From positions 1-35,601 of the forward strand of contig JACPPA010000059.1 in NCBI GenBank assembly GCA_016191285.1: a stretch of 35,601 nucleotides of DNA, in the 5' to 3' direction. The stretch comes from Gammaproteobacteria bacterium (lineage in GTDB: Bacteria; Pseudomonadota; Gammaproteobacteria; Ga0077536). Shown in pieces: positions 3,478 to 12,717 of the stretch (positions within the stretch are counted from its first letter, which is position 1; every line of letters begins with the position of its first letter). The notes under the pieces are model-generated. The model was not told the origin of the DNA. It searched no databases and was given only the letters and a program-made list of their open reading frames with translations. The position numbers were made by a program, and so were the translations under genes.

Positions 3478-5271
3478 TCATGTGACGTTTTCACGATCGT
3501 TCCTGGTACTGAGGTGGGACGATAAGGACTCCTCTATCGCCGGCTCGCATTCGACTCGCAGGCCTGTTGCCAAAGTCCTGACTGCATCGAACTGTGATAA
3601 AAATATTTGCCCTTTGAAATGCTCGAAGAAATCCGAACGCTTCAATGCATCCATAACCGGCCCTTTCACTTCGGAAAGATGGAATCCGACACCAGCCTCT
3701 TGAAGTCTGTGCGCGATCGCTTCGATGCTCTCGAGAGCACTAGCGTCGATTAGATTCACCGCGGGGCACATGAGGACCACGTGTTTTAGCTCCGGTCGCG
3801 TGGCAACCGAATCGTAGATCGTGTCTTCGAGGAAACGCGCGTTCGCGAAATACAAGCTCTCGTCGACGCGAATTGACAGGATTTCCGGATACGTAATGAC
3901 CTTATGTCGTTCGGCATTACGAAAATGTTCGGTGCCCGGCACTTGGCCGACGATCGCGATGTGCGGGGTGCTCGTGCGCCATAGATAAAAGATGATCGAA
4001 AGTACGACGCCAACCACGATTCCGGCCTCGACGCCGACGGACAGCACAAACACGATAGTCGCCGCCATCACCGTAAAATCCGCTTTTGAATACCCGAAGG
4101 TTCGCCACAGCGCTTTGAGATCGACCAGCGACAACACCGCGACTATGATGGTCGCTGCCAGCACGGCTTGCGGCAACAGACGAAACATTGGGGTCAGGAA
4201 CAACGTCGCGGCGAGAATCCCGATTGCAGTAAAGACCCCGGCCAACGGCGTCTCCGCGCCAGCGTCGAAATTAACCACTGAGCGCGCGAAGCCGCCGGTG
4301 ACAGGGAATCCTGCCGAGACCGCGGCGGCGATGTTGGCGGCGCCAAGCGCGAAAAGTTCTTGGTTCGCGCCAATCCGCTGGCGACGTTTCGCAGCGAGGG
4401 TCTGCGCCACTGAGATCGATTCGACGAAGCCGACCAAGTTTATGAGGATGGCGGCAGGCAGCAGGTCGAGCCAAAGCTTTAGGTCGACGACGGGTATCGC
4501 AAAAGGAGGAAACCCGGCCGGGATATTGCCGACGATCTTCACTCCCTTGAGCTGCAGCGTAAGCAGATCGACGCTGAGAATCGACAGTGCGATCACCGCC
4601 AGTGGGCCGGTTTTGGCAATCAGATCCGCCGTACGCGCAGCCACTCCAGCATGGACGAGATGCGGCTTCAGATTTTTTCGTACCCAGAACAAAAGTGCGA
4701 GTGCCGTCACCCCAATAAATAGCGTGTAGAAATTCGTTCCTCCGACATTGTTCGTCAATGCGAAGATAATTGTCGGTAGCGTGTCTCCACCGGCCGTAAC
4801 GCCAAGAAGATATTTCAACTGGCTCGCAGCGATCAAAATGCCGGAGGCCGTAATGAAGCTCGAAATGACGGAGTGGCTAAGAAAGTTCGACAAGAATCCA
4901 AGGCGCGACGCGGCCATTGCCAATGAGACGAGTCCGGAAAGCAAAGCTAACGTGGCGGCGGCTGTAAGGTATGCGGAGGTCCCTTGTGCCGCAACTCGAC
5001 CGATGGCTGCGGCGGTCATCAGCGAAACGACGGCGACTGGACCTACCGCAAGCGTTCGACTGGTGCCGAAGAGTGCATAGGCGACAAGCGGCAGGATAGA
5101 AGCATAAAGTCCAATATGAGGCGGGAGACCGGCGAGCATCGCATAAGCGAGGCTCTGCGGCACGAGCATGATCGTTACAATCGCCGCGGCGACAAGATCA
5201 TTTAGCGCATTTGTCTTGGTGTAAGACGGCAGCCACTCGATAATAGGCAGAATTCTCTCGGCTTTTATCAT
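3478..5271 (-). CDS. SulP-family inorganic anion (sulfate) transporter with STAS domain
   Basis: The 597-residue protein has the SulP N-terminal signature (LNDLVAAAIVTIMLVPQSLAYAMLAGLPPHIGLYAS, residues about 23-59), a 10-14 helix membrane core to about residue 430, and a C-terminal STAS domain with the loop NLIDASALESIEAI. SulP proteins move sulfate, bicarbonate or other anions across the inner membrane, usually as importers. It is the last gene of the minus-strand sox block, 56 bp after the CsoR-family repressor gene. Its place suggests sulfate handling during thiosulfate oxidation, but direction and substrate are inference, and bicarbonate is a fair alternative in an autotroph. ATG at 5271 is the first start compatible with the family N-terminus. 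Confidence 0.9.
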   Translation of the reverse strand: MIKAERILPIIEWLPSYTKTNALNDLVAAAIVTIMLVPQSLAYAMLAGLPPHIGLYASILPLVAYALFGTSRTLAVGPVAVVSLMTAAAIGRVAAQGTSAYLTAAATLALLSGLVSLAMAASRLGFLSNFLSHSVISSFITASGILIAASQLKYLLGVTAGGDTLPTIIFALTNNVGGTNFYTLFIGVTALALLFWVRKNLKPHLVHAGVAARTADLIAKTGPLAVIALSILSVDLLTLQLKGVKIVGNIPAGFPPFAIPVVDLKLWLDLLPAAILINLVGFVESISVAQTLAAKRRQRIGANQELFALGAANIAAAVSAGFPVTGGFARSVVNFDAGAETPLAGVFTAIGILAATLFLTPMFRLLPQAVLAATIIVAVLSLVDLKALWRTFGYSKADFTVMAATIVFVLSVGVEAGIVVGVVLSIIFYLWRTSTPHIAIVGQVPGTEHFRNAERHKVITYPEILSIRVDESLYFANARFLEDTIYDSVATRPELKHVVLMCPAVNLIDASALESIEAIAHRLQEAGVGFHLSEVKGPVMDALKRSDFFEHFKGQIFLSQFDAVRTLATGLRVECEPAIEESLSSHLSTRNDRENVT

Positions 5272-5327: not shown

Positions 5328-5603
5328 CTAACCATACTTCGCGAGAATTTTGGCGACGTGCGCCCCCGCAGCTTTAGCGGCGCGGACGGTACCTGCGGAT
5401 TCAAATTCGACTTCCATCGTACAGGCGATCAATTCGTAAAACGCGCGATCGAGCGCGCGCCGCGCCGCCGCGACCTGTTGTGCGACAGCTTCACAAGTAG
5501 AATCCTGCTCGATCATGCCTTGAATCCCGCGGATCTGGCCTTCGATGCGACGCAGTCGGGTAATCATGCCGCGCTTATGCGTTTCACGATATTTATCATC
5601 CAT
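5328..5603 (-). CDS. CsoR/FrmR/RcnR-family transcriptional repressor, two-cysteine type
   Basis: The 91-residue all-helical DUF156 protein starts at ATG 5603 (GGAG six bases upstream; a GTG one codon earlier is less likely). It has the family core RLRRIEGQIRGIQGMIEQDSTCEAVAQQVAAARRALDRAFYELI. Family members are tetramers that bind GC-centred palindromes and let go when the ligand site changes. Here the first-site cysteine is present (C37). The second site has C61 one position before the place where metal sensors carry histidine, and the third CsoR cysteine position is occupied by a glutamate. No histidine lies in the site. Copper or nickel sensing is therefore unlikely and a thiol/sulfane-sulfur sensor of the CstR style is more plausible (inference). 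It lies 42 bp after soxB and before sulP, on the same strand. Confidence 0.88.
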   Translation of the reverse strand: MDDKYRETHKRGMITRLRRIEGQIRGIQGMIEQDSTCEAVAQQVAAARRALDRAFYELIACTMEVEFESAGTVRAAKAAGAHVAKILAKYG

Positions 5604-5645
5604 CACTCACTCCATGCCAATTACAAAATGATCCGGTGCGCTCCG

Positions 5646-7367
5646 CTAACCGCACGATCGGCCGAGCCCTGGGTTGTCGTCGACTCCACGCAAGATCGGC
5701 AAATTGAGGACTGGCGGCGGCAGCGTCTTATGCGCGCGCAGATACTGCGCCACCACTTCCCACACCGGCGGACCTTCGACATGTTCGGCGACCGACGCCC
5801 ACCCCGCCACTTTGTATTTGCGCGCGGCATCGAGTGGCTTCCCCTCTAGCCGCAGATCGCTGATCCGTTTACCCATCGCGGCCATCGGTTCACAGGCGTA
5901 ACTTAAGCCACCGACGCGCACCATGTCCCCGCCCTGCTGATAGTACGGATCGGGATTGAACAAGTTATCGCAGACATCCTCGAGAATGGCCTTGATGCGC
6001 GCTCCGGTAAATTCGTTGACCGTGGTCGCCGGATACGTGATCGCAGTTTGATCGAGCAATCGCTCCATCGTTATCGCCTCGCCAGGAAGCAAGCTGGTGC
6101 CCCACCTGAACCCAGGCGAAAGCGCGATTTCCGCACCCTTCACTGCGCGTAGTGCGTCAAGGATTACTTGATCGAAGCTACCATTAAAGTTGCCGCGTCG
6201 GTAAAGCAAACCATCGGTCACCGCCAACACTTCCTGCAGCGCTTTGGTGTAAGGCCGGCGGTGCCCCTCAATGACCTTCTTCATCATGGGGTCAGGCGTT
6301 AATAGGTTTGCGAAAACCGGCAGCAAGCGATATTTCGCATCGCGAACTTTGCCGTCACGCACCTCAAAATCGAGTACGCCAAGAAACTTGGCATTGCTCC
6401 CGGCGTTGGTGACCAAGGTTTTGCCAGCGCGGTTTTTAACTGTGATTGGCCGCGGTACGCCATCATGCGTGTGTCCACCCAGGATTACGTCCAACCCGGT
6501 GATGCGGCCGGCGAGTTTTAGATCAACGTCCATGCCGTTATGCGACAGCAATACCACGACCACCGCACCGGCCGCGCGAGCCGCGTTCACCGTTTGCTGC
6601 AAATGCGCTTCTTGCAGGCCAAATGTCCAATCGGCGACGAAGTGGCGGGGATTCGCCACCGGGGTATAAGGAAAGGCTTGGCCGATAACCGCGACGGCGA
6701 CGCCGTTTACCGAACGCAACACGTACGGCGGGAATACCGGATCGCCAAACTCCGCGGTGGCAATGTTCTGTGCGACGAATTCAATACGTCCCTTCAGGGG
6801 TCCGTTGACCAATTCTTGGACTCGCGCCATGCCGTAGGTGAATTCCCAATGCCCAGTCATGACATCGACGCCGAGCGCCAGTTGGGCGTCGACCATGTCC
6901 GCGCCCTTGGTCCACAGCGCGGTCGCGGATCCCTGCCAAGTGTCGCCGCCATCCAGTAATAGCGCTCCGGGTCGATTGGCGCGTACGCGCTTGACCAAGG
7001 TGGCGAGTTCGGCATAGCCGCCAACGCGGCCATAGATCCGCGCGGCGTTAACGAAATCCACGCAGCTGAGAGCATGGGCCTCGCGCGAACCCGGCGCGAT
7101 CCCGAAATAATGTAGAAATTTCTCCCCCACGAGGTGTGGCGGTTGCCCTTGCCCTTCACCCACGCCTAGATTGACGTCGGGTTCGCGGAACCACACGGGC
7201 AGCAGTTGCGCATGCGAATCGGTGTAGTGCAGAAGGCTACAGTTACCGAAGGGCGGAATCGCGTAGAACGCATCGCCATCGGCATTGGCCAGGACGCGCC
7301 GATCATGCAGCGCTAGCCCGCTTGCAGTCGCAGCCGCAAGTACTTGCAGAAACTCTCGGCGCCGCAT
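5646..7367 (-). CDS. soxB: Thiosulfohydrolase SoxB
   Basis: The 573-residue periplasmic enzyme hydrolyses the terminal sulfone from the SoxY-cysteine-S-thiosulfonate, releasing sulfate. The N-terminus MRRREFLQVL is a twin-arginine (Tat) signal. The di-manganese metallophosphatase motifs are in order: HYTDSHAQL (D50, H52), LLDGGDTWQG (D142), GHWEFTYG (H173, the SoxB version of GNHEF), LLSHNG (H276) and GGHTHD (H299, H301), followed by the 5'-nucleotidase-type C-terminal domain. The length is typical. ATG 7367 follows the soxX stop by three bases, so translation is coupled. Confidence 0.97.
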   Translation of the reverse strand: MRRREFLQVLAAATASGLALHDRRVLANADGDAFYAIPPFGNCSLLHYTDSHAQLLPVWFREPDVNLGVGEGQGQPPHLVGEKFLHYFGIAPGSREAHALSCVDFVNAARIYGRVGGYAELATLVKRVRANRPGALLLDGGDTWQGSATALWTKGADMVDAQLALGVDVMTGHWEFTYGMARVQELVNGPLKGRIEFVAQNIATAEFGDPVFPPYVLRSVNGVAVAVIGQAFPYTPVANPRHFVADWTFGLQEAHLQQTVNAARAAGAVVVVLLSHNGMDVDLKLAGRITGLDVILGGHTHDGVPRPITVKNRAGKTLVTNAGSNAKFLGVLDFEVRDGKVRDAKYRLLPVFANLLTPDPMMKKVIEGHRRPYTKALQEVLAVTDGLLYRRGNFNGSFDQVILDALRAVKGAEIALSPGFRWGTSLLPGEAITMERLLDQTAITYPATTVNEFTGARIKAILEDVCDNLFNPDPYYQQGGDMVRVGGLSYACEPMAAMGKRISDLRLEGKPLDAARKYKVAGWASVAEHVEGPPVWEVVAQYLRAHKTLPPPVLNLPILRGVDDNPGLGRSCG

Positions 7368-7370
7368 TAT

Positions 7371-7985
7371 TTACTGATTGACCGGCGAGGCGGAATCGAA
7401 CAGATACGCCATCACATCTTTGAGTTGCTGTTCAGTCAGGATCCCACGATGACCGAACCGCGGCATGTTCGAGCACGGCGTTTGTGCATTGGAGTTGTAC
7501 AACTTGCCCCAGGCCATTTCGAGCACCACGGTGGTGGCGCCGCGAAGTTTGCCGTAATGGCGTAGGCTGGGACCGATCGTGCCGAACGCCATTTCGACCC
7601 CCGAAAGTTCGTGACACGCATAGCAATTGCCACCCGCCGGTTTACTGGGATCGTCGCTGAATTGTAAGCCGGTACCGGTCTCCGCGATTTGTTCGCCACG
7701 CTTCCAATCGCCAAGATACTGGCCGGCGGCCGGTGGGCGAATAGTGGCGCGGTTAGCCGCCGCAATTCGTTGTGCTATGGCCGGCGGCAGGGGGGAATCG
7801 GTATAGGAAGTACAGAGCGCCTGCGTCTCATCCTGGTCAAGCCGGTCCAGCGTTGCCTGTCGCTTGGCCTCGAATGAATTCTTCATTGCGGCAGTAACGC
7901 GCATAAGTTCGGCGTCCGCGGCAGTTACCTTTGCAGTGAAGCTCGCCGCTGCCAAGGCCATTAACCAGATAGAAAGCTGGGGCAT
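7371..7985 (-). CDS. soxX: SoxX, c-type cytochrome subunit of L-cysteine S-thiosulfotransferase
   Basis: The 204-residue monoheme subunit partners SoxA to attach thiosulfate oxidatively to SoxY. I take ATG 7985 as start, with AAGGA nine bases upstream, rather than the TTG at 8003. It has an N-terminal signal peptide ending near TAADA. The heme site CYACH is at residues 121-125, and the methionine ligand is in CSNMPRFG (M164). A long helical N-terminal extension with an unpaired cysteine (C58) precedes the cytochrome fold. It starts just after the soxA stop. Confidence 0.95.
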   Translation of the reverse strand: MPQLSIWLMALAAASFTAKVTAADAELMRVTAAMKNSFEAKRQATLDRLDQDETQALCTSYTDSPLPPAIAQRIAAANRATIRPPAAGQYLGDWKRGEQIAETGTGLQFSDDPSKPAGGNCYACHELSGVEMAFGTIGPSLRHYGKLRGATTVVLEMAWGKLYNSNAQTPCSNMPRFGHRGILTEQQLKDVMAYLFDSASPVNQ

Positions 7986-7999
7986 GAGAATTAATCCTT

Positions 8000-8815
8000 T
8001 CAACGCTTAATGGCGGGCGCGGTCATCACGCCGCCGTTGGCGTTCTTGGCGAGGAACATCGTGAGGCCGATTGCGATCTCGGAGCCGTATTTGAGCTGCG
8101 GCAATCGTTGCTGTCGAAAACAGTCCGCGAGTCGCCATTCCATTGTCCTAAGTTCTCCTTGGGAGACGCGGTAGGCCGGCCAACTGGTATACGCCGAGCG
8201 TGCGCCCTCAACCTCGGTAAGCTTCGGCAACACCTGCAGACGGATCCGTTTGCCGGCCTCGCCATGACAGGTTGCACAGGCAAAATCGTGCGGACCGGCA
8301 CGATAGAAAAACGCGCCACGACCTAAATCGTAGGCGGCTTGCTCGGCCGGGTGCGTCAGCGACACTGCGACCTTGTGGCCGCGCGAAGCGGCGACAAGGT
8401 AGGCCGTCAGCGCCTCGAGTTCCGACTTCTTCGGACCATCACCGAAACGCGTCTTTAACAGTCGTTCTTCTGCGAACCCCTGCAACGTGACCATGCAGAA
8501 TACTAGACGTGACTCGAGATCCTGCACGCGTTGCGTGTCGTCGAACCAGCGCGGGAGTTGGGCATACGCGCCGTCGATCACGCCAGCGCCGAGACCGAGG
8601 TCACATTTGGACAACGCTACATTTTTCGGCCCGCGCGGCTGTTCCCACAAATTTTTTCCGCGCAATTGCCACAGCTCAGCGGGGTTTTCGTCGCCGAACA
8701 TCGCGTGGTATTCGGCGATTGCATCGACCGTCGACGTTTCTGCGCGCAGCGTCGCCGGACTGCTGACTATCAACACTGCCAGGCTCACGAGTGTGGTGCA
8801 ACGAATCATGCTCAT
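8000..8815 (-). CDS. soxA: SoxA, catalytic subunit of L-cysteine S-thiosulfotransferase (monoheme type)
   Basis: The 271-residue subunit starts at ATG 8815, five bases after AGGAG. The signal peptide runs to about residue 25. The C-terminal cytochrome domain has CATCH (180-184), and the active-site cysteine, expected as persulfide heme ligand, is C232 in ADCFRQQR. The N-terminal domain has no CxxCH; instead C71 (SKCDLG) and C107 (LVFCM) are placed for a disulfide, so this is the single-heme SoxA variant. It forms the SoxXA complex with the next gene. It lies downstream of soxZ, with the gap carrying its own ribosome site. Confidence 0.95.
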   Translation of the reverse strand: MSMIRCTTLVSLAVLIVSSPATLRAETSTVDAIAEYHAMFGDENPAELWQLRGKNLWEQPRGPKNVALSKCDLGLGAGVIDGAYAQLPRWFDDTQRVQDLESRLVFCMVTLQGFAEERLLKTRFGDGPKKSELEALTAYLVAASRGHKVAVSLTHPAEQAAYDLGRGAFFYRAGPHDFACATCHGEAGKRIRLQVLPKLTEVEGARSAYTSWPAYRVSQGELRTMEWRLADCFRQQRLPQLKYGSEIAIGLTMFLAKNANGGVMTAPAIKR

Positions 8816-8877
8816 AAGTTCTCCTTGCCCATTACCCGGCATGACGCCCGCAGATTGTTTGGCTTATACACAGCAAT

Positions 8878-9189
8878 TCACCCAATCGCGACTTCGTCGG
8901 TCCGGGTATCGCCGCCGGTGTCAGTCCAGGTGACGGTCAACTTGTCACCCTTTTTGGCATGACGAAAACGGAACGATAGGAAGGGATTTTTAGCGATCGA
9001 AGGTCCCCACTGCGCGGAGAGTACGGTACGGCCATTACAGGTTGCACCGATGCTAACGATGTAATGCGCAGGCACCGTATTTCCGTCGACATCCTTGCGC
9101 TGGCCGGTTTCCATGTCGTGCGCCATTAAAACCTTAACCTCCACGAGGTCGCCGATAAGCATGGCGCGAATTCGCATCGGATCTGCCAT
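8878..9189 (-). CDS. soxZ: SoxZ, partner of the thiosulfate carrier
   Basis: The 103-residue immunoglobulin-like protein forms the SoxYZ heterodimer and travels to the periplasm with the SoxY Tat signal. It has no signal of its own. Family strings are IRAMLIGDLVEVKVLMAHDMETGQRKD and GPSIAKNPFLSFRFRHAKKGDKLTVTWTDTGGD. ATG 9189 is preceded by AGAGGAGA. The soxY stop is 26 bases upstream. Confidence 0.96.
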   Translation of the reverse strand: MADPMRIRAMLIGDLVEVKVLMAHDMETGQRKDVDGNTVPAHYIVSIGATCNGRTVLSAQWGPSIAKNPFLSFRFRHAKKGDKLTVTWTDTGGDTRTDEVAIG

Positions 9190-9215
9190 CGATAAATCTC
9201 CTCTAAGTATTTCGC

Positions 9216-9683
9216 TCAGCCGCCACAGCCGCCGAGCGTGACCTTAACAAGCTTCGTCGCGTAAAAAGCACCGGCGTCGGTTTTAACGATTGCGTGGACG
9301 TTCGAACTTTCGGCTACCTTGACCCGCGTCGCGATAAACGGTTCGGTACCTTCGGGGATCGAAAAATCCGCGGTCATCACGTGGGGATTTTTTTCCACCA
9401 CCAGGATGATTGAACGCGTTTGCGGTAACTTGCTTTCGACCTCAAGCGGAACCACCGCACCGTTTTCGGCGATTTCCGGCGCCTTGAACGTGATGTCAGT
9501 TGACTGCTGGGGGTGGCTAATTCCCAACGCTTTGAACACCTCGTCCAGGGTCCGCGATTCGAACGCCGGTCGCGATTCCGCCGCCCAGCTGAGTGCGGAG
9601 CGCAAACCGAAACTCACCATTAGCGCGGATAATCCGACGCGGCACGTGACGTGGAAGAAAGCTCTTCGATGACTATTGATCAT
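9216..9683 (-). CDS. soxY: SoxY, sulfur-carrier subunit
   Basis: The 155-residue carrier ends in VTLGGCGG, so thiosulfate is bound covalently to C153 on the flexible C-terminal arm, the defining SoxY feature. The N-terminus SHRRAFF resembles a twin-arginine signal, as expected for co-export with SoxZ. I choose ATG 9683, eight bases after GGAG; a TTG two codons earlier is in frame but unlikely. The mature part shows the KAPEIAENGAVVPLEVE and ATRVKVAESSNVHAIVKT strands of the family. Confidence 0.96.
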   Translation of the reverse strand: MINSHRRAFFHVTCRVGLSALMVSFGLRSALSWAAESRPAFESRTLDEVFKALGISHPQQSTDITFKAPEIAENGAVVPLEVESKLPQTRSIILVVEKNPHVMTADFSIPEGTEPFIATRVKVAESSNVHAIVKTDAGAFYATKLVKVTLGGCGG

Positions 9684-9720
9684 GTGCAAGACTCCAGTGA
9701 CTACGGTGTGACTTGGAAGG

Positions 9721-10695
9721 CTATTCGCTCGGCGCGCCGGACTTAATCCAGTTTAAAATTGTTGCCAATGCAACATCCGAGATCTGAGATTGCGGCGGCA
9801 TTATCGCCGTGCCCCAGACGCCGGATCCGCCCTCTCTGATTTTCGCGGTCAGCTTAGCCGAGGCATCAGCGACTGCGGCGTAGCGCTTCGAAATATCCGT
9901 AAATGCCGGACCGACAATGCCTTGATCTCGGCCGTGGCACACGCCACAGCCATTGGCCTTCAATAATTCCGGTGCGCTCGCCGCGCCCGCAGCCGTTGAC
10001 GGCGAAGGAGCCGCACCCTGATCTTGCAGCGTAAATTGGCGAAACTGTGCCCGGATATCGCCGTACATCTGCTGCGTAAAATCGGGCGGAATTTCGGCGG
10101 ATATTTTCACTTCCTGCGCGCAATTCCGCATACACGCAACGTTGTGCACGTCAGGCTTGCCGTGCACGCTGCGCATTCCATGCGCCAAGGTAAAACCGTC
10201 GCGATTCGGCATTTTGACCTGCGGCAGACTTATTTCGTCGAGCACTGCGTCGGCCGACACTATTCCATTCAAGTTGAGTACGTAGGCGACGACCGCATAA
10301 ACCTCGTTTGGCGCCAGCGACTTGGAATTATTGAACGGCATGGCCCGATTAATGTAATCCCAAAGCGTGGTGGCGTAATTAAGCTTGCTCCCGACGGTCC
10401 GTTGCGGCGTGCTCGTTTTTAACGATCCGATACCGCCCGCCAGCGCGACGAATTGAGGGCTATCGCCAAACGTACCGTGACAAGCTGCACATTGCGCGTC
10501 ATAGATTATCTGTCCTTCCGCGACACTGCCACGACCCTTCGGCAGTCCAACTCCGTCCGGTCGCACGTCGATGTTCCAGTCTGCAATTTCGTCGGCGGTA
10601 ATCGCGCGACCCAAGGTATTCCAAGGCGCCGCTTGTCCGGTCCATGGGACCAATAGGCCAGCAAGTAGGATTACCCGGCGGTTAAACCTGGACAT
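9721..10695 (-). CDS. soxD: SoxD, diheme cytochrome c subunit of sulfane dehydrogenase
   Basis: The protein is 324 residues from ATG 10695; ATG 10704 is an alternative. Both overlap the soxC stop, so translation is coupled. A signal peptide ends near TGQAA. Two heme sites, CAACH (69-73) and CGVCH (250-254), lie in two cytochrome domains. The linker carries GFTLAHGMRSVHGKPDVHNVACMRNC, typical of SoxD. It accepts electrons from SoxC during six-electron oxidation of the SoxY-bound sulfane and passes them to small cytochromes. A longer open frame upstream runs inside soxC and is not used. Confidence 0.95.
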   Translation of the reverse strand: MSRFNRRVILLAGLLVPWTGQAAPWNTLGRAITADEIADWNIDVRPDGVGLPKGRGSVAEGQIIYDAQCAACHGTFGDSPQFVALAGGIGSLKTSTPQRTVGSKLNYATTLWDYINRAMPFNNSKSLAPNEVYAVVAYVLNLNGIVSADAVLDEISLPQVKMPNRDGFTLAHGMRSVHGKPDVHNVACMRNCAQEVKISAEIPPDFTQQMYGDIRAQFRQFTLQDQGAAPSPSTAAGAASAPELLKANGCGVCHGRDQGIVGPAFTDISKRYAAVADASAKLTAKIREGGSGVWGTAIMPPQSQISDVALATILNWIKSGAPSE

Positions 10696-11992
10696 CGCGT
10701 ACATCACCGCTGTCAGTAACCTGCCAGGTTTGAATTCCGTTGTTGTGGTAAATCGAATGCGTGCCGCGCACCTCCCGCAATTGGCGGATTGTCGGTTGCA
10801 CATACCCCGTGTCGTCGATACATCGGCTCTGCAACAGCGTCGGCGCACCGTCCCAGCTCCAGTCACACCGGAACCGCGTTAAGCTCTTGGGCATTATCGG
10901 TTCTTGTAATCGCGTAGGCCGCCAGTTACGCCCGCCGTCGGTGGAGACGTCGACACGCTTGATACGCCCGCGGCCCGACCACGCAAGACCCGTAATCTGA
11001 TAGTAACCACCCTTATCCATTAACTGTTGACCGCCGGATGGCGAGGTGATCACCGATTTGGCTTCCTGGATATACGTGTACTGGCGGCTCGATCCATCAG
11101 GCATCAGATCGGTGTAGTGAATCGTTTCCTCTCGCGTATGCCAAGGCTGATCGCCGATCTTGATTCGGCGCAACCATTTGACGCTCGACACACCCTGGAC
11201 GCCGGGTACTATCAGGCGAACCGGATAGCCGTTTTCGGGCCGTAGCATCTCGCCGTTTTGACCGTAGACAACCAACACATCGTCAAGCGCCATCTCAATG
11301 GGCAGCGTACGTGTCAGCCCAGCCGCATCCGCGCCTTCGGCAAGGATGAACTTGGCGCGTTTCGCGTCGTAGCCAACATCATCGAGGAGCGTCGATAACG
11401 GGACGCCGGTGTACTCGGCGCACGACAACATGCCGTGCGTGTATTGCACGGTGGGTGCCGCGACCGCTGCCCACTCCATCGCCGAATTGGCGCCGCACTC
11501 CAGAAAGTGGACACGCGATACCGACGGGAACCGCAAAATGTCCTCCATCGTGTAGATCTTTGACTGTTTGGCCAAGCCGTGCACAACCAGTCGATGCCGA
11601 TACGGATCCACTTCCGGCAAGCCGTTGTGGTTACGCTCGAAATGGAGACCATTAGGCGTAATGATGCCAAAGAGATTCTGTAACGGCGTAAAGGCCACGG
11701 ACGATTCCGATGTGGTCGTGAGGCCCGGGTTAATCCGGCGAATGATGTTCGACTCGTAATGCGACGGCAGTCCATAGGGTTGCGACGCGACCGGTTTGCC
11801 GAGTTGCTTCGACCACGGCGGTACAGCGAGGCGCTGAACAGCCTTGTCGGCGGCGGTTGCGCGAACGCCAAATAACGCCGCAGCCGTGCCCACGATCCCA
11901 CCAAGGAGTCGCCGCCGCTCTTCATACTGTGGTGAGAGCTTATTCTCGGACGCGGCAATCACCCGACCGGGTCTCAATGATTGTTCCTGCAT
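10682..11992 (-). CDS. soxC: SoxC, molybdenum subunit of sulfane dehydrogenase
   Basis: The 436-residue enzyme starts at ATG 11992 with GGAG eight bases upstream. An upstream in-frame ATG at 12037 would add 15 residues without a ribosome site. A Tat-like segment (EERRRLLGGIVGTAAALFG, from about residue 25) gives periplasmic export. The sulfite-oxidase fold is clear, with the molybdopterin cysteine C166 in VHFLECGANSAMEW, and YPVRLIVPGVQGVSSVKWLRRI and the C-terminal dimerisation domain. With SoxD it oxidises the SoxY-cysteine sulfane to the sulfone level, so the full Sox cycle should yield sulfate without stored sulfur. First gene of the operon. Confidence 0.96.
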   Translation of the reverse strand: MQEQSLRPGRVIAASENKLSPQYEERRRLLGGIVGTAAALFGVRATAADKAVQRLAVPPWSKQLGKPVASQPYGLPSHYESNIIRRINPGLTTTSESSVAFTPLQNLFGIITPNGLHFERNHNGLPEVDPYRHRLVVHGLAKQSKIYTMEDILRFPSVSRVHFLECGANSAMEWAAVAAPTVQYTHGMLSCAEYTGVPLSTLLDDVGYDAKRAKFILAEGADAAGLTRTLPIEMALDDVLVVYGQNGEMLRPENGYPVRLIVPGVQGVSSVKWLRRIKIGDQPWHTREETIHYTDLMPDGSSRQYTYIQEAKSVITSPSGGQQLMDKGGYYQITGLAWSGRGRIKRVDVSTDGGRNWRPTRLQEPIMPKSLTRFRCDWSWDGAPTLLQSRCIDDTGYVQPTIRQLREVRGTHSIYHNNGIQTWQVTDSGDVRDVQV

Positions 11993-12124
11993 TGTCTCGA
12001 CTCCACGTTCATGAATATGAAGAGACACCGTGAGCACCTTCTGCGGCCATCGCGCACGCGATACGCGCGATCCATGGCGGCAGGTGAGTTCGATACATGA
12101 ACTTTTCCTCGATCGCCATAATTT

Positions 12125-12156
12125 ATTATATACCCCTACGGGTATTAGTATGACAA
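12125..12156 (-). promoter_or_regulatory. Putative sigma-70-type promoter of the sox operon
   Basis: On the minus strand TTGTCA (12156-12151) is followed after 18 bases by TATATA (12132-12127), or after 20 bases by TATAAT (12130-12125). It points to soxC and leaves a leader of about 120-130 nt. It is the only good -35/-10 pair I see upstream of the seven tightly packed sox genes. The spacer holds a palindrome, listed separately. Confidence 0.6.
12130..12145. promoter_or_regulatory. Palindromic operator of CsoR-family type in the sox promoter
   Basis: The sequence ATACCC-CTAC-GGGTAT is a perfect six-base-arm inverted repeat with a four-base centre. ATACCC/GGGTAT arms around a short GC-bearing centre are the known operator form of CsoR/CstR-type repressors (established for the family; the exact match to this protein is inference). 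It occupies the promoter spacer and overlaps one -10 option, so binding should block RNA polymerase. The only CsoR-family gene in the window is at 5328-5603, in the same block. Confidence 0.65.
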
Positions 12157-12278
12157 TATAGAAATCGCCTCACTTCATGTCAATAAGGTAGTGGTCTTGC
12201 CGTCGGCGTCGAGGCGCTCGCAGCGACGTCAATTCGAGCCATTCGAGCGTAACAGCCTCGACTGATCGATGCGATTGC

Positions 12279-12501: not shown

Positions 12502-12526
12502 ATGTGTTTAATACTGGCAACACAAT

Positions 12527-12604
12527 GTGGGAACCCACTTCGTGGGAGCCGCTTTAGCGGCGAATCTCATTAAATTCCCTTTCGCGGCTAAAGCCACTCC
12601 CACC
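12527..12604. repeat. REP pair (BIME-like), unit 1
   Basis: Begins TGTGGGAACCCACTTCGTGGG, then GAGCCGCTTTAGCGGCGAA, an AT-rich centre, and the inverted TTCGCGGCTAAAGCCACTCCCACC. GTGGGAGC...GCTCCCAC arms with internal GCCGCTTTAGCGGC stems are typical of REP palindromes of gammaproteobacteria, which are moved by RAYT (TnpA-REP) enzymes. No RAYT gene is in the window. Confidence 0.8.
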
Positions 12605-12637
12605 AGAATGACCCATCCATCGCTGAAGGTTCGTTAT

Positions 12638-12717
12638 TGTGGGAACCCACATTGTGGGAGCCGCTTTAGCGGCGAATCCTCATTAAATTCCCTTTCGCGG
12701 CTACAGCCGCTCCCACC
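12638..12717. repeat. REP pair (BIME-like), unit 2
   Basis: A near-identical second copy of the unit at 12527-12604, 33 bp further on, differing by a few bases (CACATTG for CACTTCG; ACAGCCGCT for AAAGCCACT). Same orientation, so the two form a direct tandem of inverted pairs between the GGDEF/EAL gene's 3' end and the sox operon's upstream region. Confidence 0.8.

Follow-up and report, generated by a model that had tools for sequence, protein, structure and literature searches.

The window analysed here comprises positions 1 to 35,601 of contig JACPPA010000059.1 of a gammaproteobacterial genome (assembly GCA_016191285.1). It contains a soxCDYZAXB block for sulfur oxidation which is followed by a gene for a predicted repressor of the DUF156/CsoR family. 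Judged from the sequence, this sox operon is probably controlled by a thiol-bearing CsoR-type repressor that is encoded in the operon itself, and it is very likely that the repressor acts on a palindrome located before soxC. In 9/9 genomes the candidate operator before soxC is accompanied by a gene for a two-cysteine CsoR-family protein that closes the block, in line with what the sequence-only reading had proposed for the window. Control of sox genes is understood in only a few organisms, namely for ArsR-type SoxR, for two-component systems and for TTHA1953 of Thermus.

A conserved palindrome at the soxC promoter

The candidate operator ATACCCGTAGGGGTAT (TAC-N8-GTA) is located on the minus strand at 12130..12145, upstream of soxC. 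The palindrome ATACCC-CTAC-GGGTAT described in the sequence-only reading is thus present exactly, and the pattern ATACCC-N4-GGGTAT has no other exact match in the 5.1-Mb genome. Chance alone would yield about 0.3 exact 12-base matches per 5.1 Mb, so the palindrome by itself is weak evidence, and the weight of the evidence is on its conservation in place.

The promoter had to be reassigned. The palindrome had been placed exactly between TTGTCA and TATATA, which cannot be maintained: TATATA (12132-12127) shares the final three bases of the palindrome, and TTGTCA (12156-12151) runs into the -10 element of a better promoter, TTGACA-N17-TATATT (12183-12155), that matches 11 of 12 consensus bases. 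The -35 element TTGACA of this promoter is located at 12178..12183 and the -10 element TATATT, 17 bp further on, at 12155..12160 (both minus strand), with the palindrome starting 9 nt past the -10 element. In all nine loci that carry the site, the best sigma-70-like pair is found directly upstream of it (TTGA(C/T)N-N17-TAnnnT, with N18 in G027 and G032), with the -35 element in the same place, and ends 3–10 nt before the palindrome (seven of the nine loci were aligned). An operator within the promoter spacer was therefore rejected, as TTGTCA/TATATA is not conserved and TTGAnn-N17/18-TAnnnT just upstream is kept in 9/9 loci. With the conserved promoter just upstream, the operator is placed over the expected start point or directly next to it.

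A search of the same genome for further regulon members yielded no other convincing target; with one mismatch allowed, the pattern occurred at 7 places versus 4 for the control pattern. Upstream of the soxC promoter, at 12525-12700, short repeats (GTGGGA...GCCGCTTTAGCGGCGAAT) are present, possibly an intergenic repeat family.

Co-occurrence of repressor gene and palindrome

We compared 36 genomes of the family to which the window belongs, its own genome (G000) included. A close orthologue of the repressor was found in 11 of them, and the nine relatives with a full-length match are 66–83% identical. Ten of the 11 orthologues adjoin soxB, directly or with one intervening metallo-beta-lactamase (MBL) gene; the eleventh (G024) is located near a contig end, past an apparent copy of the same MBL gene. 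In one such locus (L028 4488-5447) the gene between soxB and the regulator is a SoxH-like gene of the metallo-beta-lactamase fold (TIGR04559 171 bits, below the cut-off of 280). SoxH-like frames were also seen in L029, L030, L033, L035 and L038, and none is present at that place in the window.

Among 30 soxC-like loci, one per genome, nine have the site upstream of soxC (G000, G002, G003, G004, G005, G010, G011, G027 and G032) and 21 do not. Few of these 21 are like-for-like comparators, since G035 and G026 have no 5´ region and several others are paralogues. The G024 locus without a site, for instance, is a paralogue (with 88% identity to that of G018 and only about 51% to soxC of the G010 operon), the operon soxC of G024 being outside the comparison set. 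In the 300 bp upstream of soxC the site was found in 9/9 loci with the repressor (dinucleotide shuffles gave a mean of 0.005 of 9, with a largest value of 1) and in 0/4 sox clusters without it (G001, G015, G021 and G037). The co-occurrence that the sequence-only reading had suggested looking for is thus seen, and the case it named as fatal, a retained repressor gene with a lost palindrome, was not encountered: a variant of the palindrome is present in 9/9 genomes in which both the repressor and the 5´ end of the operon soxC are retained.

The pattern ATACSSRYRGGGGTAT has one match in each of the nine genomes, always upstream of soxC, and none in the other 27; its reversed control has zero matches in the 36 genomes. 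Because these nine sites served to fit the pattern, the only thing it adds is its absence from the rest of the genomes. When the unfitted pattern of the window was used instead, the soxC site was the top or joint top match of the block in 6/7 loci and the second in G004.

Alternatively, the palindrome might belong to another regulator, with the DUF156 gene a mere passenger at the operon's end; about 6.5 kb separate the gene from the site, and binding of the repressor there is a prediction. We consider this very improbable: across genomes the site tracks the gene, palindromes with TAC and GTA arms flanking G/C tracts are a known operator type of the CsoR family in the available part of the source (PMC3902906), and in distant members of the family such a site is found upstream of the regulator gene itself, its spacing matching the cysteine class.

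Two incomplete regulator genes were observed. In G035 (L038 15235-16962) a diverged regulator frame runs into a long frame, and contig C54 of G003 carries a second regulator fragment of 46 residues with 80% identity (L039 near 5386-5508). Either an assembly break or real decay could account for them.

Sox clusters without the repressor

SoxB exceeds its cut-off in 20 of the 36 family genomes. Those which have soxB and lack the repressor are G001, G008, G012, G018, G019 and six genomes of genus g3; the SoxB proteins of G012, G018 and G019 are divergent (52–54% identity), and in G008 soxA-soxB is found on a 3.2-kb contig that does not include soxC.

G001, which is of the same genus as the window's genome, has the same soxCDYZAXB order, no repressor orthologue and no site, and its only DUF156 content is a weak distant match elsewhere in the genome. 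In this locus (L234 3435-4253, contig C18) an ArsR-family gene is located about 0.3 kb upstream of soxC on the same strand, and beyond it a divergent rhodanese gene. The ArsR-family protein scored 50.3 bits with HTH_5 (cut-off 22) and 81.9 bits with the BigR model, whose cut-off of 155 it does not reach. This suggests an exchange of regulators within one genus, with an ArsR-family protein in place of the CsoR-type one.

The regulator and its two cysteines

The predicted repressor (5328..5606, minus strand) has 92 amino acids, with cysteines at positions 38 and 62, and belongs to PF02583 (DUF156, CsoR/RcnR; 72.4 bits, cut-off 22.8). The sequence-only reading had called it the sole CsoR-family gene of the window, located at the far end of the block; this is correct, and it is also the only PF02583 gene found in the whole 5.1-Mb genome. 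The predicted structure is a three-helix CsoR fold (pLDDT 92.9), and its best matches in the Protein Data Bank are CsoR, InrS, FrmR and CstR, with E-values of 1.2e-3 and weaker and TM-scores of up to 0.78 by query length.

Cys38 is the conserved family cysteine (position X) and was present in all 91 rows of an alignment of relatives from which seven duplicate or truncated rows had been dropped. Cys62 without Cys67 is found in 80 of these rows, Cys67 without Cys62 in 9 and neither in 2, one being the diverging frame of G035 (L038) and the other a protein of FrmR-like appearance (L047). Both Cys38 and Cys62 are invariant in ten aligned proteins, the nine sox-linked ones and that of Solimonas.

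An ungapped profile alignment places Glu67 at the second cysteine of Streptococcus pneumoniae CstR (7mq1, 7mq3) and at Cys82 of InrS, and Thr63 at His78 of InrS, while Cys62 has no counterpart. The S. pneumoniae alignment was used because the cysteines of Enterococcus faecalis CstR are printed as C31 and C62 in the available part of the source (PMC9405070), which does not fit CX28C. The pair found here is thus CX23C, with its second cysteine five residues before the CstR position. The thiols had been described as sulfur-sensor-like, and this is right for Cys38 as the family cysteine but does not apply to the position of the second one. By its cysteine pair the regulator is not a CstR, with Glu67 where the second thiol of CsoR (Cys65) and of S. 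pneumoniae CstR (CX28C) is found, though it may well work in a CstR-like manner. That Cys38 and Cys62 act as the switch is an assignment that we slightly favour from the sequence.

Other named classes do not fit. FrmR scored 40.9 bits against an NCBIfam cut-off of 133, and residue 2 at the N-terminus is no proline; RcnR scored 29.5 bits against 138. The regulator might sense copper or another metal and thereby tie sox to metal status: it is a PF02583 member, InrS and CsoR are the best matches among relatives with a solved structure, and many CsoR/RcnR proteins sense metals. In place of the Cys-His-Cys triad of copper CsoR, however, it has Cys38, Thr63 and Glu67, with the InrS ligand positions His78 and Cys82 likewise lost, and a copper CsoR is disfavoured by these positions. 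The proven copper sensor CsoR of Pseudomonas putida retains Cys40/His65/Cys69, according to the accessible text (PMC11978298), and no copper gene was recognised among the examined neighbours of the sox blocks. Metal sensing is thus quite unlikely.

Operator length and cysteine class

The spacing of the operator goes with the class of the cysteine pair. A search for ATAC-Nx-GTAT with a G/C-rich spacer (x = 6 to 11) in the 300 bp upstream of 123 DUF156 genes identified a site in 21 of 86 CX23C loci, with N8 in 21/21, and in six of 27 CX28C loci, with N9 in 6/6; the ten loci with neither cysteine pair had one site, with N9. N8 is therefore found in 21/21 CX23C versus 0/6 CX28C loci with a site, and all nine sox operators have it. 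N9 is the spacing of several published CsoR sites, as given in part of one source (PMC3902906).

With stricter arms and 2 kb on either side of the gene, 14 of 80 CX23C loci showed the 16-bp form and one (L119, downstream of the gene) the 17-bp form. The longer form was seen in 14 of 21 CX28C loci, none of which had the shorter one, and in three of 19 unclassed loci. Of the 14 sites, at least one (L036) is located inside soxB. The counts ignore kinship, and near-copies or repeated genomes are among the loci (L037/L180, L056/L177 and L054/L055). Most loci of either class have no site in the stretch searched.

In the CX28C loci L040, L041, L042, L044, L191, L194 and L202, a 17-bp palindrome is located about 1.4 kb before the gene, a distance that is constant in several genera, and it is probably part of another conserved regulon.

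An association of CX23C with N8 and of CX28C with N9 would provide a simple sequence rule to predict what many unnamed "metal-sensitive" regulators control and which effectors they respond to. We lean, by a small degree, towards a broader reading, namely that the CX23C proteins are a large subgroup in Gamma- and Betaproteobacteria, with the second thiol shifted five residues along helix 2 and an operator one bp shorter (N8 versus N9), which in many lineages would be the persulfide sensor of sulfide-detoxification genes; one branch would have been recruited as a self-regulating sox switch, independently of Thermus, and exchanged with an ArsR-family regulator.

Sulfur genes next to related regulators

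A tree of 101 rows was calculated after exclusion of same-genome duplicates, of the truncated or diverging L038, L039 and L089, and of L040-L043 and L047. The ten sox-linked rows group together (98/90), and Solimonas aquatica is adjacent to this group (99/92); the deeper forks are unsure because of few columns and long branches. Opposite the regulator gene of Solimonas are a YeeE pair, TauE and a persulfide-dioxygenase-like gene with 68% identity to that of Perlucidibaca. Members of the CX23C subgroup that are not linked to sox often adjoin persulfide-dioxygenase-like genes and also sulfurtransferase-like genes, and a persulfide-dioxygenase-like MBL gene with at least 54% identity is present in 16 of 81 wider-clade loci. 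The name persulfide dioxygenase is tentative, as the scores with the Blh and GloB models do not reach the cut-offs. No close orthologue of the Perlucidibaca protein was found in the window's genome, where the matches have only 30–38% identity. Upstream of regulator genes not linked to sox, the palindrome was found with up to two mismatches in 19 of 74 loci versus about 1.6 expected.

With these sulfur genes as neighbours and the same palindrome at relatives not linked to sox, sulfane sulfur is the likeliest effector, and from such sequence context we rate this assignment as rather likely. The thiols could instead sense oxidative or general redox stress, forming a disulfide via peroxide or oxygen. 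For TTHA1953, the available part of the Thermus thermophilus paper reports that under non-reducing conditions H2O2 or Cu(II) abolishes DNA binding and that NaHS does not (PMC10318464). NaHS is no persulfide in itself, and the sister protein of Solimonas and other relatives adjoin persulfide-dioxygenase-like, TauE and YeeE genes, pointing to sulfur species. We thus regard redox sensing as unlikely.

The linkage to sox was seen only within the family of the window; the contig scan covered the best 80 of 426 relatives, and the linkage may occur elsewhere. The class-wide search of 369 genomes, drawn from a larger group, gave seven strong matches (E < 1e-20) outside the own genome, none of which adjoins soxB within its locus of about 3 kb.

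Proposed mechanism

In the mechanism we propose, the reduced repressor with the CsoR/RcnR fold (5328-5606) would bind the 16-bp palindrome at the soxC start point and silence the sigma-70-type promoter, so that soxCDYZAXB and the gene of the repressor itself would be off. With thiosulfate or sulfide available, sulfane sulfur (persulfide or polysulfide) would accumulate, Cys38 would be joined to Cys62 of the partner subunit, or these thiols would be persulfidated, and DNA binding would be lost. The Sox enzymes would then be produced, and newly made repressor would reset the system once sulfane sulfur drops.

Several points weigh against this proposal. We infer binding, repression, co-transcription, effector and thiol chemistry for this regulator, and the offset of the second cysteine from the CstR position makes its chemistry tentative; TTHA1953 moreover kept its DNA binding with NaHS and lost it on thiol oxidation, as far as the accessible description goes (PMC10318464). 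The nine genomes with a site all belong to one family, the fitted motif was derived from their own nine sites, and G001 is the only colinear sox operon of the same type without the repressor, most other site-less soxC-like loci being paralogues or distant clusters. The repressor frame of G035 diverges after about 50 residues, and in the wider clade the palindrome was found within one mismatch upstream in just 13 of 74 loci.

Genes of the sox block

The block is encoded on the minus strand in the order soxC-soxD-soxY-soxZ-soxA-soxX-soxB, followed by the DUF156 gene and a SulP gene, with short intergenic gaps. SoxC (10682..11992; TIGR04555 624.6 bits, cut-off 420) was given the ATG that fits the length of the proteins of its relatives, the longest frame beginning at 12037. 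SoxD, a c-type cytochrome (9721..10704), was named from its two cytochrome c stretches and its place between soxC and soxY; its start is uncertain, with the longest frame beginning at 10866. The other genes exceed their NCBIfam cut-offs, as does soxC: soxY (9216..9689; TIGR04488 147.7 bits, cut-off 125), soxZ (8878..9189; TIGR04490 119.7 bits, cut-off 76), soxA (8000..8842; TIGR04484 233.6 bits, cut-off 110), soxX (7371..8003; TIGR04485 87.7 bits, cut-off 61) and soxB (5646..7367; TIGR04486 851.9 bits, cut-off 550). Two more SoxC-like proteins above the TIGR04555 cut-off (568 and 560 bits) are encoded in the same genome at C31:190953-192161 and C40:27032-28240, where exact copies of the palindrome are absent.

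The gap from soxB to the regulator gene is 39 bp, and that from the regulator gene to SulP 56 bp. From this gene order a closed feedback loop would follow, in which the regulator is made from the operon it controls, and the SulP transporter gene (3478..5271, minus strand; TIGR00815 448.1 bits, cut-off 380) is possibly part of the same transcript. A SulP gene comes next after the regulator both here and in G003 (84% identity), while that of G005 is convergent and only 43% identical (compared loci: window 3478-5271 and L028 2457-4187). The protein may transport anions for the sox pathway.

Comparison with known systems

The sequence-only reading regarded control of sox by a CsoR-family protein as a new wiring, but the available part of one paper already reports it for T. 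thermophilus HB8, where the CsoR-like TTHA1953 represses sox in vitro and in vivo and sox is derepressed in the mutant (PMC10318464). This is the only report on the CsoR family and sox found in the literature searched, most subscription papers lying outside the search. Both systems have a two-cysteine CsoR-family protein, a palindrome with TAC/GTA elements at promoters and sox as a target, predicted in our case from the conserved putative site before soxC in 9/9 testable genomes. TTHA1953 differs by its published description, which was used here rather than a protein alignment and is accessible in part: its cysteines are Cys39 and Cys68 (CX28C) instead of Cys38 and Cys62 (CX23C), its selected consensus is TACNNTACNNNNGTANNGTA instead of ATAC-N8-GTAT with G/C tracts, and its gene is far from its targets instead of at the end of the sox block.

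Two thiols, a CsoR fold and an association with sulfur genes are also found in CstR, the persulfide sensor of Firmicutes, and in YrkD of Bacillus licheniformis, as far as the source available in part goes (PMC9918477). In contrast to the regulator described here, CstR has its second cysteine at the position of Glu67 and none that corresponds to Cys62, and the targets named for it in the partly accessible literature are not sox operons. CsoR of Streptomyces lividans shares the fold (4adz and 4uig were the best structure matches) and, in its type 2 operators, the TAC/GTA dyad around G/C tracts; the spacing given in the accessible text is TAC-N9-GTA instead of N8, and its copper ligand set is absent here (PMC3902906). 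For the CX23C subgroup itself, no description was recognised in the literature searched, again with most subscription papers outside the search.

ArsR-type SoxR and sHdrR of Hyphomicrobium denitrificans are likewise described, in sources available in part, as sulfane-sulfur-responsive repressors of sulfur oxidation genes (PMC10451225, PMC12423496), but the regulator found here is from another protein family; it is G001 that has an ArsR-family gene upstream of soxC. Judged from the sequence comparison, the system appears to be the Thermus principle built from a different branch of the repressor family. If this is true, the CsoR fold has been recruited to sox a second time, in an operon-encoded form that is replaced by an ArsR-family protein within a genus, and the sulfane-sulfur switch of sox operons would be exchangeable.

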